From Bacteroidales bacterium 6E (GTDB lineage Bacteria > Bacteroidota > Bacteroidia > Bacteroidales > Prolixibacteraceae): a DNA stretch of 64,000 nt. This document shows positions 9,632-57,942 of the stretch, piece by piece (within the stretch, counting starts at the first letter, position 1; every line of letters begins with the position of its first letter). The notes below the pieces were generated by a model. It saw nothing but the letters and a program-made list of their open reading frames with translations, made no database searches and was not told where the DNA came from. The position numbers and the translations under genes were made by a program. Location of the stretch: NCBI GenBank assembly GCA_001270045.2, contig DF970673.1, forward strand, positions 12,124 through 76,123, given 5' to 3'.

Positions 9632-10909
9632 TTATGAATATTCAGGTGCCCTGATTTCACCAATAAACAGGATTGCACCGGTTGATTTTTCGGTAATGAC
9701 AAAAAGGAAAGGCCTGTCGACTGTAAAGTAGATCTTCTTGGGCATGTCAGAGGGCATACTCGTTGTATACATGCCTACCGCAGTGACGGCAGCGGCTTCT
9801 GTACCATTTTCATTGACATCGATATAGGTTTTGTGTTTCACAAAGCCGATGTATAGATCTTTTCCACCGGTAATCCCGGAAAAGTCGGCTGTATTGGGAT
9901 TGAACGCTGAAGGCATACCCATTGTAGCCAGGATGTCGTTCAAGGTCATTTCCCATGCAAACTTAAACCGGGGCATTGACACAACCACGTTGTCATGTTT
10001 CCTGAATTCCTTCAGCCATCCTTTCCAATTGGCAAGGTTCATGTCAGCGATAAGGTTTTGGTTAGTCTGGTCTTGGTCTGGAAGGAGCACAGTCATCCTG
10101 TATTGGCCTTTGCCATATGGCAGATGGATGGCGCTGAACTTGTCATTGCTGAAATATTCAAGTGAGGTTTCCTGCGACATGGTTGCAACATCTTTCATAG
10201 TGCCGTCACCGTGCCTGAAAGGAAGCTCATGGGTTTTGTTCTCGTCAAATTTATATTGCCATATGCCATTGAAATAGATGGCATTCAACAGGACCATGGC
10301 AAGGTCACTATCGATTTGGTCAATGATTTCAGGTATTTTATCCCTGGTTTTTTCGGCAACCCATTGGTTTATAATGTCTTTTGCATCAACAGCATTAAAG
10401 TTCAATGATTGTATCTCTGCGTCATAATAGTTTTTGTTGGTTGCAATAAACTGCTCCTTCACCGTCAATTCCTGTCGATAATAGATCGCATTGGCTATTT
10501 CCAGAAGTACATCCGGATCGGCCGATTTCAGTGCAGAAAGCAGAGCCTTATGTGACTCATTGATTTGTGCGGTTGATAATCCATTCAGTCGTAGGGTTTT
10601 CTCCATTTCCGTTTTGGTGTTTCCTTCAGCTCCATTATATGTCATCGAAAGAGCCAGACTTACACTGAGAGGTGAAACCATGGTGTTGTCGTTGGGATTC
10701 GCCTGTTGTGTCACCTTTTTGAAGAAATCCAGTCCAAATGCGTTGTCAGCCTCAATCAATTCAGCTGATTTCTGTGGAAGATCAAACGGGTTTTCTTGCT
10801 CTGGTTCCTGCTTTTGGCATGATACCAGGGCAATGCTCATCAGAAAAATAAACAGTGCAGTCATCGTGGTTGTTTTTCGGGTAATACGATTCGTTTTCAT
10901 TGCTTTCAT
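9632..10909 (-). CDS. Serpin-family protease inhibitor, predicted lipoprotein
   Basis: A 425-residue serpin with a lipoprotein signal (LFIFLMSIALVSCQK, Cys near residue 31). The serpin fold is complete: VTQQANPNDNTMVSPLSVSLALSM, the LLNAIYFNGIWQYKF shutter region, the hinge VNENGTEAAAVTAV, and the C-terminal DRPFLFVITEKSTGAILFIGEI. The hinge has small residues at P12-P9, the mark of inhibitory rather than non-inhibitory serpins. The presumed P1 lies in the MYTTS stretch; the exact bond cannot be set by eye. Tannerella miropin is a characterised relative. Transcribed from an ECF-type promoter back-to-back with that of the neighbouring sigma gene. ATG 10900 is an alternative start. Likely role: protecting the cell surface from proteases. 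Confidence 0.92.
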   Translation of the reverse strand: MKAMKTNRITRKTTTMTALFIFLMSIALVSCQKQEPEQENPFDLPQKSAELIEADNAFGLDFFKKVTQQANPNDNTMVSPLSVSLALSMTYNGAEGNTKTEMEKTLRLNGLSTAQINESHKALLSALKSADPDVLLEIANAIYYRQELTVKEQFIATNKNYYDAEIQSLNFNAVDAKDIINQWVAEKTRDKIPEIIDQIDSDLAMVLLNAIYFNGIWQYKFDENKTHELPFRHGDGTMKDVATMSQETSLEYFSNDKFSAIHLPYGKGQYRMTVLLPDQDQTNQNLIADMNLANWKGWLKEFRKHDNVVVSMPRFKFAWEMTLNDILATMGMPSAFNPNTADFSGITGGKDLYIGFVKHKTYIDVNENGTEAAAVTAVGMYTTSMPSDMPKKIYFTVDRPFLFVITEKSTGAILFIGEIRAPEYS

Positions 10910-10930: not shown

Positions 10931-10957
10931 TAGACGGAAGAAGTTTTGAAAGGTTGC
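10931..10957 (-). promoter_or_regulatory. ECF-type promoter of the serpin gene
   Basis: On the minus strand GCAACC (10957 to 10952, within TAACGCAACCTTT) is followed after 15 nt by CGTCTA (10936 to 10931), 21 nt before the serpin ATG. AAC in the -35 and CGTC in the -10 are general hallmarks of ECF sigma promoters. The same -35 sequence occurs at 10972-10984 (other strand) and 22195-22205. Confidence 0.65.
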
Positions 10958-10975
10958 GTTATTGAAAATCGTAAC

Positions 10976-11003
10976 GCAACCTTTTTAAATCATTATACAT
11001 CTT
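10976..11003 (+). promoter_or_regulatory. ECF-type promoter of the sigma factor gene
   Basis: GCAACC (10976-10981, within TAACGCAACCTTT 10972-10984) and CATCTT (10998-11003) are 16 nt apart. The -35 arm is the exact inverted copy of the serpin -35, so the 13-bp inverted repeat here is two divergent -35 elements with a 10-nt gap. The leader to the TTG start at 11098 would be about 90 nt. This suggests autoregulation by the encoded sigma factor. Confidence 0.6.
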
Positions 11004-11097
11004 GAAGAAACAAGGATAGTTGAGATTCCTTTTCAGATATTTGCCAGGGTAATAGCCGGTAATTATCCTTAATTTTGTAGAAAAATTTTTCGACAAC

Positions 11098-11658
11098 TTG
11101 GAAGACATCAGGGACATAATTGATGCCTGTATTTCGGGGGATAACCGGGCCCACGAAAAGCTTTACCGTATGCTGGCGCCCAAAATGTATGGGGTTTGCC
11201 TGCGATATGCCAAGGATGCTGATGAGGCCAAGGATAATCTGCAGGATGGATTTGTTACGGTTTTTACCAAGTTAAGGGATTTCAGACATGAAGGTTCTTT
11301 CGAAGGATGGGTAAGGAGAATAATGGTGAATGTTTCACTTGACCGATACCGGAAAAATCAGCCTCTCCTTTTTGTGGATGAAGTGCGCGCCCATGATGTG
11401 GCAACCCACGAAGAGGAAGCAATGGCAAACCTGCCGGTGGAAGATCTGGTCAGGACGATCAGGGAGTTGCCTCCTCAATACAAGATGGTTTTCAACCTGT
11501 ATGTTTTTGAAGGTTTAAGCCACCAGGATATCGGTAAGCAGCTGGGCATCACTGAAAGCACATCAAAATCCAATCTTTCACGGGCTCGTGAAATTCTTCG
11601 GCAAAAACTGGAAAGTCAATATGGAGAAATGAAAAAAAACAGGAGATACTCAATATGA
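11098..11658 (+). CDS. RNA polymerase ECF sigma factor
   Basis: A 186-residue sigma-70 family protein with only regions 2 and 4, as in ECF sigmas. Region 2 is at about 10-85 (YGVCLRYAKDADEAKDNLQDGFVTVF, then FEGWVRRIMVNVSLDRYRK). Region 4 is at about 115-170, with the helix-turn-helix LSHQDIGKQLGITESTSKSNLSRAREIL. The only plausible start is TTG 11098 (MEDIRDIIDACISGDN), since no in-frame ATG precedes the conserved core. The next gene overlaps by 4 nt (ATGA) and encodes a protein with anti-sigma features, so the two are translationally coupled. The ECF-type promoter at 10976 suggests positive autoregulation. Its proposed targets are the serpin and the 22.2 kb and 15.8 kb envelope operons. Confidence 0.95.
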   Translation: MEDIRDIIDACISGDNRAHEKLYRMLAPKMYGVCLRYAKDADEAKDNLQDGFVTVFTKLRDFRHEGSFEGWVRRIMVNVSLDRYRKNQPLLFVDEVRAHDVATHEEEAMANLPVEDLVRTIRELPPQYKMVFNLYVFEGLSHQDIGKQLGITESTSKSNLSRAREILRQKLESQYGEMKKNRRYSI

Positions 11659-13037
11659 GAAGGGAAGATAAACTGGACCAACTGCTTCGGGAGCGTGTCG
11701 AAAATTATGCCCCTGATCCCCCTGAATGGGTCTGGAATTCCGTTCAATCGGAATTATCTGTCCGTAAAGGCAAAAGTAAGGTAGTCCTTATCAGGTGGGC
11801 TGCAGCTGCTGCCATTTTGATAATTGCATCAACCACTTTGCTGCTGTTCGACAGACAGGAAGAAGCTCAATTTGCATCAGAACAGAATACTTTAAACGTT
11901 CCTGCGACATCACCTGCAAATGCACCCAGACAAGATAAGCCTCTTGAATCACCTTCAACAGTCGGGTCTGTACAGATTACACATTCCGGTGTATCAGTTC
12001 CCGATCAGGTTCAGGAAAAACCGGTTCCCGATATTTCAGCGAAAATGTTATCTGTGCCTTCCGACAAGAGCCTTTATGCAAATCGATTCAGCCAAATGGA
12101 CGTCATGGAAAGTCGCGCTGCCAGGAATTTGTCAGGGAACAACAATATTCATGAAAGGCAGAAACTGATAATCCCTGCTGATCGCCTGACACATGAGGAC
12201 CAAATGATCATCGCGGCCAATCTGGCTGGCCGAAATGAAGATGAATACCAGGAATCAGGTGGGTGGAAGCTTGGTGTTCATGTTTCCCCTGCTTTCTCAT
12301 CACATAATGCTGACCACACTGCCATTTACGCGAGTAACATGACTTATTCGGGCGACAATTCTGACGCCACAATGGGAGGAGGTATATCGGTCCAGTATAA
12401 AACTAATTCAAGGTGGAGGATCGAAAGTGGTATGTACTATTCCAAAACGGGAGGTAGCAGTGGTAACTCTTTGAGTCCGCGAAATGCACATGCCGATTTT
12501 GTGTCGGCTCCGGGTTCTGCCGAAAAATATTTCAATACCTTGGTGAATTCAAATCGGGGTCAGCTCGAAATGAACAGTACGGCCGGGGTCATCCGTTTCG
12601 ATGGCACTCCTGCCCAAGCCGAAATGATTACCATGCCTGTTGGTGGTTTTGGACTTACAACTGCCATGCTCTCACCAGGTGAGTTTACACAGGTTTTTGA
12701 TTTTGTGGAGATTCCACTTTTTGCGAGATACCTTCTTTATGACTCCCGGTTGGATGTGGAATGGGTTGGTGGAGTAAGCAGTAACTTCACAGTCGGAAAC
12801 AATGTTTACATGGAATCCAACAGCAACAGGGAAAGAGTGGGGACAACGGAAGACATCTCGACTTTCTCGGTCGCAGGAACTACAGGTATAGGCCTGGCTT
12901 ATTCCCTGGGGAAAAATCTATCGCTTTCCGTCGAACCGAGGTTCACTTATTACCTAAGCTCCATTAACCATAGTGGAGAAGTAAACTTCAGGCCTTGGCG
13001 ACTTGGAGTGTATACTGGACTTAGCTATGAGTTCTGA
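11655..13037 (+). CDS. Dual-membrane anti-sigma factor/outer-membrane beta-barrel fusion (Dma-like)
   Basis: A 460-residue protein with four parts. Residues 1-42 are charged and cytoplasmic, with the motif PPEWVWNSVQSEL. One inner-membrane helix lies at 43-65 (VVLIRWAAAAAILIIASTTLLLF). A Pro/Ser/Gln-rich low-complexity linker covers about 66-190. A beta-barrel-like domain covers about 200-460, from WKLGVHVSPAFSSHN to a terminal Phe (GVYTGLSYEF). This matches the dual-membrane-spanning anti-sigma (Dma) family described in Bacteroides thetaiotaomicron, where the N-terminus holds the cognate ECF sigma and the barrel sits in the outer membrane. The 4-nt overlap with the sigma gene supports the pairing. 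There is no cleavable signal peptide. Anti-sigma activity is inferred. Confidence 0.8.
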   Translation: MRREDKLDQLLRERVENYAPDPPEWVWNSVQSELSVRKGKSKVVLIRWAAAAAILIIASTTLLLFDRQEEAQFASEQNTLNVPATSPANAPRQDKPLESPSTVGSVQITHSGVSVPDQVQEKPVPDISAKMLSVPSDKSLYANRFSQMDVMESRAARNLSGNNNIHERQKLIIPADRLTHEDQMIIAANLAGRNEDEYQESGGWKLGVHVSPAFSSHNADHTAIYASNMTYSGDNSDATMGGGISVQYKTNSRWRIESGMYYSKTGGSSGNSLSPRNAHADFVSAPGSAEKYFNTLVNSNRGQLEMNSTAGVIRFDGTPAQAEMITMPVGGFGLTTAMLSPGEFTQVFDFVEIPLFARYLLYDSRLDVEWVGGVSSNFTVGNNVYMESNSNRERVGTTEDISTFSVAGTTGIGLAYSLGKNLSLSVEPRFTYYLSSINHSGEVNFRPWRLGVYTGLSYEF

Positions 13038-22185: not shown

Positions 22186-22196
22186 TCAAACTCAAC

Positions 22197-22223
22197 GCAA
22201 CCTTTCCTTCAAACATCCATCTA
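22197..22223 (+). promoter_or_regulatory. ECF-type promoter of the beta-barrel/LVIVD operon
   Basis: AACGCAACCTTT (22194-22205) repeats the 12-nt core of the sigma/serpin -35 elements exactly. CATCTA (22218-22223) follows 15 nt after GCAACC. The ATG is 22 nt downstream. Shared long -35 identity with the sigma gene promoter argues that one sigma factor reads all three. Confidence 0.65.
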
Positions 22224-22245
22224 CTTATAAAAATCAAATACGACC

Positions 22246-23067
22246 ATGAAAAGATGGATAATAATGGTTTTGCTGGTATTTTCGGCAGTAGTCGTTTTTG
22301 CACAAAGTGCTTATTACCAGAGAGCCTCCCAGTTTGAGCGAGGCTATATTTACTTCAAGGACGGTTCAGTTTTCAAAGGATCTTATCTCTACTCCCCTGA
22401 CATGGATAAAATCCGAATCAATTCCGGCAGGAATTCAATGGTTTTGGATGCCTCAGAGGTCGAAAAGATTTCCAAAATGCGTCCTCCCAGGCAATATGCC
22501 GGCGACGATATAAAAGACGACTTTACAGTAAAGCCGCCGCGCTTATTTAATATTACGGATGCCGGATTGCTGGTGGGAAATCCTGACAATAGCCAGTCGG
22601 CACCTCTGGTTTTCGGGACTGCCATGTTCTATAATTTTCATGGTAACTTTTCTGCTGGAGCTGGGCTTGGGGTAGAGTTCCTTAAAGAAACCTATGTTCC
22701 CTTGTCATTGAACCTGATGTATAAACTTAAAAGCACCAGGGTTACGCCCTACTTTAACCTTCAGGCTGGATACCAGATGCCCGTTGAGGATTCGAGGGCA
22801 TTGTATTACAGTGTTGTTCCCGATTACATCAGCTCTTCCATCATATGGCCGGGACCATGGCCGACCTCCCAGACCGAGTTGGAAGCCAAAGGGGGTTTAT
22901 TGTTGAACCCTACCTTTGGGATCCTGAGTTTCAATCGTTTTGGATATGGATTTAACATGTCGGTTGGTTATCGATTCCACAGATTGAGATATTCAGGCGA
23001 AAATGATTACAATCTGGATATTGATTTCAATCGCCTGTCTGTAAAACTGGGTGTAGCCATCAACTAA
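22246..23067 (+). CDS. Outer-membrane beta-barrel protein
   Basis: A 273-residue protein with a signal peptide (IIMVLLVFSAVVVFAQ). A small N-terminal domain follows at about 30-80 (GYIYFKDGSVFKGSYLYSPDM, VEKISKM). From about residue 105, alternating strands are typical of an 8-10 strand barrel (AGLLVGNPDNSQSAPLVFGT, FSAGAGLGVEFL, YFNLQAGYQMP, FNMSVGYRFHRLRYSG). It has its own ECF-type promoter and is 10 nt upstream of the LVIVD lipoprotein gene. Likely an outer-membrane protein induced by the sigma factor at 11.1 kb; function unknown. Confidence 0.75.
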   Translation: MKRWIIMVLLVFSAVVVFAQSAYYQRASQFERGYIYFKDGSVFKGSYLYSPDMDKIRINSGRNSMVLDASEVEKISKMRPPRQYAGDDIKDDFTVKPPRLFNITDAGLLVGNPDNSQSAPLVFGTAMFYNFHGNFSAGAGLGVEFLKETYVPLSLNLMYKLKSTRVTPYFNLQAGYQMPVEDSRALYYSVVPDYISSSIIWPGPWPTSQTELEAKGGLLLNPTFGILSFNRFGYGFNMSVGYRFHRLRYSGENDYNLDIDFNRLSVKLGVAIN

Positions 23068-23077
23068 TTTAAAAGCC

Positions 23078-24367
23078 ATGAAAAAACTATATATCATTTC
23101 ATTCCTTCTGATAACCCTTACCATGTCGTCATGCAGGGATACCTATACCGAAGTGTTTACCGCCAATTCCCCTGTCTATATGGGTTATGAGGAACTCCGA
23201 AAGGCAGTGAAGCCATCTCAGGCAAGGTCTCTTGAGAAACCCGGGAAGATTTATTTCAAGGATAATTATCTTTTCGTGGTGGAAGACCGCAAGGGAGTAC
23301 ATATTGTGAGCATTGAGATTCCGGCCAGCCCACAGATTCTTCAATTTATTGAGGTTCCCGGTTGCGTGGATATAGCAATCAAGGGAAGTACGCTTTATGC
23401 CGACAGCTACATAGACCTGGTGGCGATTGATGTCTCAGACCTGAATAACATTAAAGAAGTTGCCCGCGTTAAAGATGTATTGCCTTATCTTGTTCCTCCT
23501 GCAGATAACGATTATCGCATGGCGGAAGTTGATAAGGAAAAGGGTGTTGTCATCGATTGGGAGATTAAAAAGGTAAGGCAAGATATGGATTATGAGTACT
23601 ATCCAATCTTTCCGATTTACCCCATATGGGGTGGAGCCAAGGAGATGGATTACACCAGTTCTAGTGGCGGCGGCGTTGGTGGCAGCTCTGGCTCATCTTT
23701 TGGGGTGGGAGGATCCATGGCCCGGTTCGGACTCTATAAAGAGTATTTGTATGCGGTCGACAACAGCAAATGCTACATGTTTGATGTCAGCAATCCTGTC
23801 AGTCCAATCACTGCCGGGAGCCAATCTGTTGGGTGGGATGTTGAAACCATGTTTATCTATGACCATCATATGTTTTTGGGAACCATGAATGGTATGATTA
23901 TTCTTTCCCTTGAAGTTCCCCTGGCCCCTAAATATGTCAGTACATTCAATCATGTCACCAGTTGCGACCCCGTGGTGGTTTCGGATGGTTATGCCTATGT
24001 GACGCTAAGGGGCGGCCAAGTATGCCGAAGCACAACCAACCGGCTTGATGTAATACGGCTGGCAGATGATTACAAGAGCAATCAAATGGTGGCAACCTAT
24101 GTAATGAACAGTCCTTACGGGCTTGGTATCGACGGGGATATTCTCTTTGTGTGTGATGGTGATGCCGGACTGAAAGTTTACAATGTCGAAGATAAACTGA
24201 CGATCAATTCTCATCAACTGGCGGTTTTCCCCAACATCAAAACATATGATGTTATTCCGTTCAATGGTCTTCTGTTCATGATTGGTTCCGATGGATTTCA
24301 TTTGTATGATTATTCCGACTTGCAGAATATAAGGTTGCTTGGGAAAATTCCTGTTTCCATTAATTAA
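23078..24367 (+). CDS. LVIVD-repeat lipoprotein
   Basis: A 429-residue lipoprotein (signal IISFLLITLTMSSC). Beta-propeller-like LVIVD repeats run through the body: DNYLFVVEDRKGVHIVSIE, DLVAIDVSDLNNIKEVARV, LYAVDNSKCYMFDVSNPVSP, and DILFVCDGDAGLKVYNVED. A Gly/Ser-rich loop interrupts them at about residues 196-212 (SSSGGGVGGSSGSSFG), unusual for a propeller and probably a surface-exposed insertion. Last gene of the two-gene ECF-promoter unit, followed by a strong terminator. LVIVD proteins are surface-associated in several bacteria, but no reaction is known. Probably a binding scaffold at the cell surface. Confidence 0.82.
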   Translation: MKKLYIISFLLITLTMSSCRDTYTEVFTANSPVYMGYEELRKAVKPSQARSLEKPGKIYFKDNYLFVVEDRKGVHIVSIEIPASPQILQFIEVPGCVDIAIKGSTLYADSYIDLVAIDVSDLNNIKEVARVKDVLPYLVPPADNDYRMAEVDKEKGVVIDWEIKKVRQDMDYEYYPIFPIYPIWGGAKEMDYTSSSGGGVGGSSGSSFGVGGSMARFGLYKEYLYAVDNSKCYMFDVSNPVSPITAGSQSVGWDVETMFIYDHHMFLGTMNGMIILSLEVPLAPKYVSTFNHVTSCDPVVVSDGYAYVTLRGGQVCRSTTNRLDVIRLADDYKSNQMVATYVMNSPYGLGIDGDILFVCDGDAGLKVYNVEDKLTINSHQLAVFPNIKTYDVIPFNGLLFMIGSDGFHLYDYSDLQNIRLLGKIPVSIN

Positions 24368-57902: not shown

Positions 57903-57942
57903 AAAGAAGGTACGGAGAAACATAAGGATCCGTACCTTCTTT
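57903..57942 (+). terminator. Terminator after pgi
   Basis: AAAGAAGGTACGGA (57903-57916) and TCCGTACCTTCTTT (57929-57942) are a perfect 14-bp inverted repeat with a 12-nt loop, 34 nt past the pgi stop. The T-rich 3' arm suits rightward termination. It also lies just beyond the 3' end of the convergent gene at 57981. Confidence 0.82.

Follow-up and report, generated by a model that had tools for sequence, protein, structure and literature searches.

What is a perfect 13-bp inverted repeat doing between the starts of two divergent genes? In the window (the whole 64-kb stretch of DNA that was analyzed), positions 10949–10984 read AAAGGTTGCGTTA-ttgaaaatcg-TAACGCAACCTTT, that is, two 13-bp arms around a 10-nt loop, with no strand of its own. 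On one side, on the minus strand, lies a gene (9632–10909, start at 10909) for a serpin lipoprotein with the inhibitory hinge ENGTEAAAVT (PF00079, E = 1e-114). On the other side, on the plus strand, lies a gene for an ECF-type sigma factor (11098–11658; PF08281 and PF04542) with a TTG start at 11098; most orthologs, 59 of 81, likewise have TTG as their aligned first codon. An earlier sequence-only reading had described this repeat, with its arms 10 nt apart, and had named a serpin and a sigma gene as its neighbors; letters and coordinates match exactly, and the domain matches confirm both genes.

We consider it highly probable (about 0.88), judging from sequence comparison, that the repeat represents two back-to-back divergent promoters of one ECF sigma factor, of the form ACGCAACC(www)-N13-CRTCTW, which serve the sigma operon and the serpin gene. 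The likely reader is the sigma factor encoded at 11098, acting with a Dma-like partner.

Two divergent sites with a conserved spacing

Both arms contain the hexamer GCAACC. The predicted -35 core facing the sigma gene is located at 10976–10981 on the plus strand (conserved form ACGCAACCwww, 10974–10984) and is followed after 16 nt by a predicted -10 element, CATCTT, at 10998–11003. The core facing the serpin gene is located at 10952–10957 on the minus strand and is followed after 15 nt by CGTCTA at 10931–10936, 21 nt before the serpin ATG. The same two spacings had been noted by the sequence-only reading. In the closest relative (L070, Prolixibacteraceae UBA5740) both promoters are kept, including CATCTT and, with a spacer of 16 nt, CGTCTA, while the outer letters of the repeat and its loop have changed.

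The strongest single result is the spacing between GCAACY and CRTCT. We scanned 81 divergent serpin/sigma intergenic regions, from the window and 80 relatives, for the two motifs at any distance from 3 to 29 nt. A spacing of exactly 16 nt was found in 62 cases for the sigma side and in 65 for the serpin side; 12 further cases had 15 or 17 nt and four lay elsewhere, whereas the reversed control gave no matches at any spacing from 3 to 29 nt in the same 81 regions. Among the cases at 15–17 nt, 127 out of 139 thus had a spacing of 16, and the serpin-side spacer in the window (15) is one less than this family mode.

When the best match over 15 positions was considered, 61 of the 81 regions reached a score of at least 13 on the sigma side and 66 did so on the serpin side, compared with 1 of 162 control regions. 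The logo of the orthologous intergenic regions agrees with both -35 cores, and the letters AC ahead of GCAACC are nearly fixed there. Every -35 element of the site set contains AAC and every -10 element CRTC; an AAC-containing -35, a CGTC/CATC-like -10 and a fixed spacing are the features of ECF-type promoters. These comparisons strongly support a reading of each arm as the -35 element of a bipartite site, ACGCAACCwww-N13-CRTCTW (GCAACC-N16-CRTCT). The proposal that the 13-mer is a -35 element is thereby borne out as to its identity but not its extent, since the conserved -35 is ACGCAACC and not the whole 13-mer.

The same two-part site is enriched elsewhere, as the genome-wide check suggested with the sequence-only reading had anticipated. 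The pattern CGCAACY-N15-17-CRTCTW had 10 matches in the own genome against 0 in the reversed control. Seven of the 10 lie 21–94 nt ahead of a gene start, in the direction of transcription, and three lie inside genes; most loci of the family are likewise placed just upstream of genes. A search of 140 Prolixibacteraceae genomes, the family concerned, gave 256 matches of GCAACCTTT-N11-14-CRTCTW against 34 of the reversed control, counts that are not independent because the genomes are kin, and an order-wide sample showed the same enrichment with few control matches. Only the two-part site is enriched: ACGCAACC alone gave 81 matches against 89 in the control. The choice of pattern also mattered. 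TAACGCAACCTTT as an exact query was too strict, finding in the genome of 4,436,542 bases nothing beyond its two copies at 10949–10984, the divergent arms themselves; a loose own-genome pattern, CAACCTTTN10-14CRTCWW, gave 7 matches against 4 and mixed true with coding matches.

It should be mentioned that some sites have a gap two bases shorter (N11; L069, G039:C11 and G043:C1), and at least one of them (L069) precedes the gene of a different ECF sigma factor. Such sites may point to another group of ECF factors that uses a similar -35.

Perfect inverted repeats of at least 13 bp with a loop of up to 20 nt were found twice in the window and in none of four block shuffles (0 in each); the other one, at 57903–57942, has 14-bp arms and a 12-nt loop. 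Such a repeat could also be an intrinsic transcription terminator or another RNA hairpin. Its 13-bp stem is followed by a T-run on the plus strand, and the 36-nt stretch folds at -18.1 kcal/mol. However, the flanking genes are divergent, with nothing obvious there to terminate, the full palindrome is retained in just 2 of 59 loci, and the distance between the two -35 elements in orthologs ranges from 11 to 583 bp. What has been conserved is how far each arm lies from its own CRTCT box, and this would not be expected of a hairpin. Instead of a conserved stem-loop and T-run past a gene end, we found an unconserved stem between divergent gene starts, and we regard a terminator as extremely improbable.

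The variable distance between the arms, with no clear helical phase, also makes it very improbable that the repeat is an operator through which a dimeric repressor or activator controls both genes. Symmetric sites between divergent genes are typical of such operators, but single arms also precede other genes without a partner arm, and each time a -10 box follows at the fixed distance; this reading was rejected as well. As judged from the orthologs, the inverted repeat arises simply because two identical -35 elements face away from each other. The preference for back-to-back promoters over a terminator, already voiced from the letters alone, thus holds, given the rare palindrome, the conserved distance from arm to CRTCT and the enrichment of the two-part site.

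The sigma gene, its partner and the reader of the site

To which sigma factor could the site belong? It was present upstream of 20 of 20 sigma orthologs in the family that have no serpin neighbor and upstream of 23 of the 27 orthologs from other families, but of none of 20 paralogous ECF genes. The 117 genomes with a strong sigma ortholog contained 2.15 sites on average and the 23 genomes without one 0.17, about the control level, although these groups are not phylogenetically independent. This distribution points to the sigma factor encoded at 11098 as the likely reader. The sites might instead be ECF promoters read mainly by another ECF sigma factor, the neighboring sigma gene being only one of its targets. 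Bacteroidota have many ECF factors, overlapping regulons are considered likely in Flavobacterium (PMC9723704), and a few sites with the 11-nt gap stand ahead of a different ECF gene (L069). Nevertheless, the number of sites falls to background in genomes lacking the sigma ortholog, and the site is nearly always upstream of this ortholog and never of its closest paralogs, so that reading by another factor is improbable. Among the NCBIfam matches listed for the 11098 sigma, our likely reader, the general sigma70-ECF family alone was above the cut-off.

Besides its ECF promoter, the sigma gene very likely has another one of the housekeeping type. The octamer TAATTTTG at 11070–11077 on the plus strand is a likely sigmaA box of the form TAnnTTTG, which the primary sigma factor of Bacteroidota uses as its -7 box (PMC7366714). 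Of 81 orthologs, 63 had TAnnTTTG in the 75 nt upstream of the sigma start, mostly 27–35 nt before it, compared with 10 of 81 reversed controls. The conservation of this box suggests basal transcription with autoinduction on top as the likely design.

The next orf, at 11655–13037 on the plus strand, overlaps the sigma stop by 4 nt (ATGA), and in 78 of 81 loci the gene for a similar protein comes next after that for the sigma factor, the two usually overlapping. The AlphaFold model of its product, of moderate confidence overall (mean pLDDT 61.7), contains helices at residues 4–15 and 24–64, including a transmembrane stretch, a disordered region at 67–170 (pLDDT below 50) and strands at 204–459 forming a C-terminal barrel; its best PDB matches are outer-membrane barrels. 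A head, one transmembrane helix, a disordered tether and a barrel, encoded beside an ECF sigma gene, make up the architecture of the Das/Dma systems. By this likeness to the architecture described for Dma, the protein is a candidate Dma-like anti-sigma factor.

The serpin and other predicted regulon members

The serpin matches PF00079 across the full fold, and its hinge, ENGTEAAAV, corresponds to the ExGTEAAAA-like hinge of inhibitory serpins (PMC8233489). A hinge of the form ExG[TS]EAAAV was present in nearly all relatives found, though the search pattern itself selects for such hinges. A divergent serpin gene within 1 kb of the sigma gene was revealed in 83 of the 118 family genomes with the sigma factor and in seven of 27 loci from other families. 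Where serpin genes were not linked to the sigma gene, the site pointed toward the serpin in nine of 20 cases and in the opposite direction in none; 11 of the 20 had no site, two of the 20 having little upstream sequence. In genomes without the sigma factor, none of the four serpins tested had a site. The unlinked serpins with a site indicate that the association is not merely one of neighborhood, and a serpin from yet another family (L220) is also located behind the site. Together with the shared site on both sides in relatives, these data agree with the earlier suggestion that the serpin is under the same factor as the sigma gene itself.

Two to five tandem serpin genes lie beside the sigma gene in several relatives (L103, L110, L112, L113, L115, L121, L124; G033, G034), and their presumed P4–P2 reactive-loop residues differ, which would fit inhibition of varied proteases. 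As a secreted lipoprotein with an inhibitory hinge, the serpin likely serves to trap proteases, either on the cell surface or within the periplasm, under envelope stress. It is conceivable, though unlikely, that the serpin inhibits an envelope protease that would cut the Dma-like anti-sigma factor, in which case the sigma factor would switch on its own brake.

The genes behind the seven own-genome sites are those for the sigma factor, the serpin, an OMP starting at 22246 and four lipoproteins, of which one is NigD-like (NigD_C, 3e-24) and one an FKBP-type isomerase (3e-19). NigD-like genes were also found behind the site in another family. The OMP gene follows the third promoter copy in the window, GCAACC-N15-CATCTA at 22197–22223 on the plus strand, which ends 22 nt before the ATG at 22246. 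The predicted regulon operon (22246–24367, plus strand) consists of this OMP beta-barrel-like gene (22246–23067) and a gene for an LVIVD-repeat lipoprotein (23078–24367), and homologs are found behind the same promoter in relatives. In this region (22193–24367) the third copy lies between two co-oriented genes; one relative (G467, L226) has its OMP/LVIVD homologs divergently behind the site.

In six loci of one genus (L044, L051, L052, L055, L059 and L061) a gene for a large PKD-like secreted protein begins exactly 30–31 nt downstream of the site and is probably another regulon member. One relative has a weakly trypsin-like lipoprotein (L058:445–1470) behind the same promoter, so that a protease candidate and protease inhibitors may share a regulon.

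Proposed circuit and comparison with known systems

Very probably, we deal here with an envelope-sensing sigma factor of Bacteroidales that switches on itself and a neighboring serpin, in an arrangement kept in dozens of relatives. The Dma-like protein encoded by the overlapping gene would keep the sigma factor at the membrane: its N-terminal head would bind sigma in the cytoplasm, and its C-terminal barrel would sit in the outer membrane. An envelope problem, the presumed inducing signal, would be sensed by the barrel or the tether and lead to release of the sigma factor. From starts predicted downstream of the CRTCT boxes, the released factor would transcribe its own sigma/anti-sigma operon, a feedback loop atop basal sigmaA-type transcription, and, in the other direction, the serpin gene. 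It would also transcribe the OMP/LVIVD operon at 22246 and the genes for the NigD-like and FKBP-type isomerase lipoproteins and for two more lipoproteins.

The physiological role of bacterial serpins was called enigmatic in a recent phylogeny (PMC8233489), and the locus offers a rare clue to their purpose. If the proposed circuit is true, Prolixibacteraceae and several other Bacteroidales families have a sigma system that senses the outer membrane and counts a serpin among its core, conserved outputs, and the promoter code ACGCAACC-N16-CRTCT (counted from GCAACC to CRTCT) allows its regulon to be read from the sequence of genomes not yet studied. Serpin function would then become testable, and so would Dma signaling. 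According to a transcriptome paper of 2020, no recognition motif was known for any alternative ECF sigma factor of Bacteroides thetaiotaomicron (PMC7366714). The serpin arm and the promoter code appear to be new, although the general kind of system is known and an ECF21 motif may have been published earlier.

The SM6 motif of Flavobacterium psychrophilum (PMC9723704), from the same phylum, is likewise an ECF-type promoter with CGT in the -10 region and has one ECF/anti-sigma operon among its targets. Unlike our site, it serves largely T9SS genes, and the available text of that paper gives no GCAACC-type -35. SigP of Porphyromonas gingivalis is also a Bacteroidota ECF sigma factor for envelope or secretion genes, but its partner is PorXY and its proposed motif is C(T)AAA(G/C/T)A(T)A(C)T(A/G)A (PMC4800418). 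The PM2 motif of B. thetaiotaomicron (-10/-30 boxes, TGTT) was considered and found to be a different element.

The best solved-structure match of the serpin is miropin of Tannerella forsythia (PDB 5ncs, E = 6e-86). The hinge GTEAAAVTAV is identical, and both proteins have T-S at the presumed P1-P1′, whereas the residues before the presumed P1 are GMYT here and EMVK in miropin. The literature searched contained nothing on the regulation of miropin and no link between serpins and sigma factors in Bacteroidetes.

The closest parallels come from the Das/Dma systems of B. thetaiotaomicron, as described in one paper and in work that it cites (PMC13088901). Dma proteins are partners of ECF21 sigma factors, and here as there an ECF sigma gene lies beside a gene for a protein with an N-terminal anti-sigma head, a transmembrane helix, a long disordered tether and a C-terminal beta-barrel. 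Dma1 controls nigD1 and vesiculation, and the induction of nigD1 in the dma1 mutant is matched by the NigD-like gene behind our promoter. Similarly, das2 itself belongs to the genes whose expression rises most when dma2 is mutated, which parallels the autoregulation proposed here. In contrast, the divergent pairing of a serpin gene with the sigma gene, with a promoter in common, sets our locus apart, as neither a serpin nor a promoter motif figures in that text. From its sequence and architecture, the locus may best be described as an ECF circuit of the Das/Dma-like kind that has a serpin as an output.
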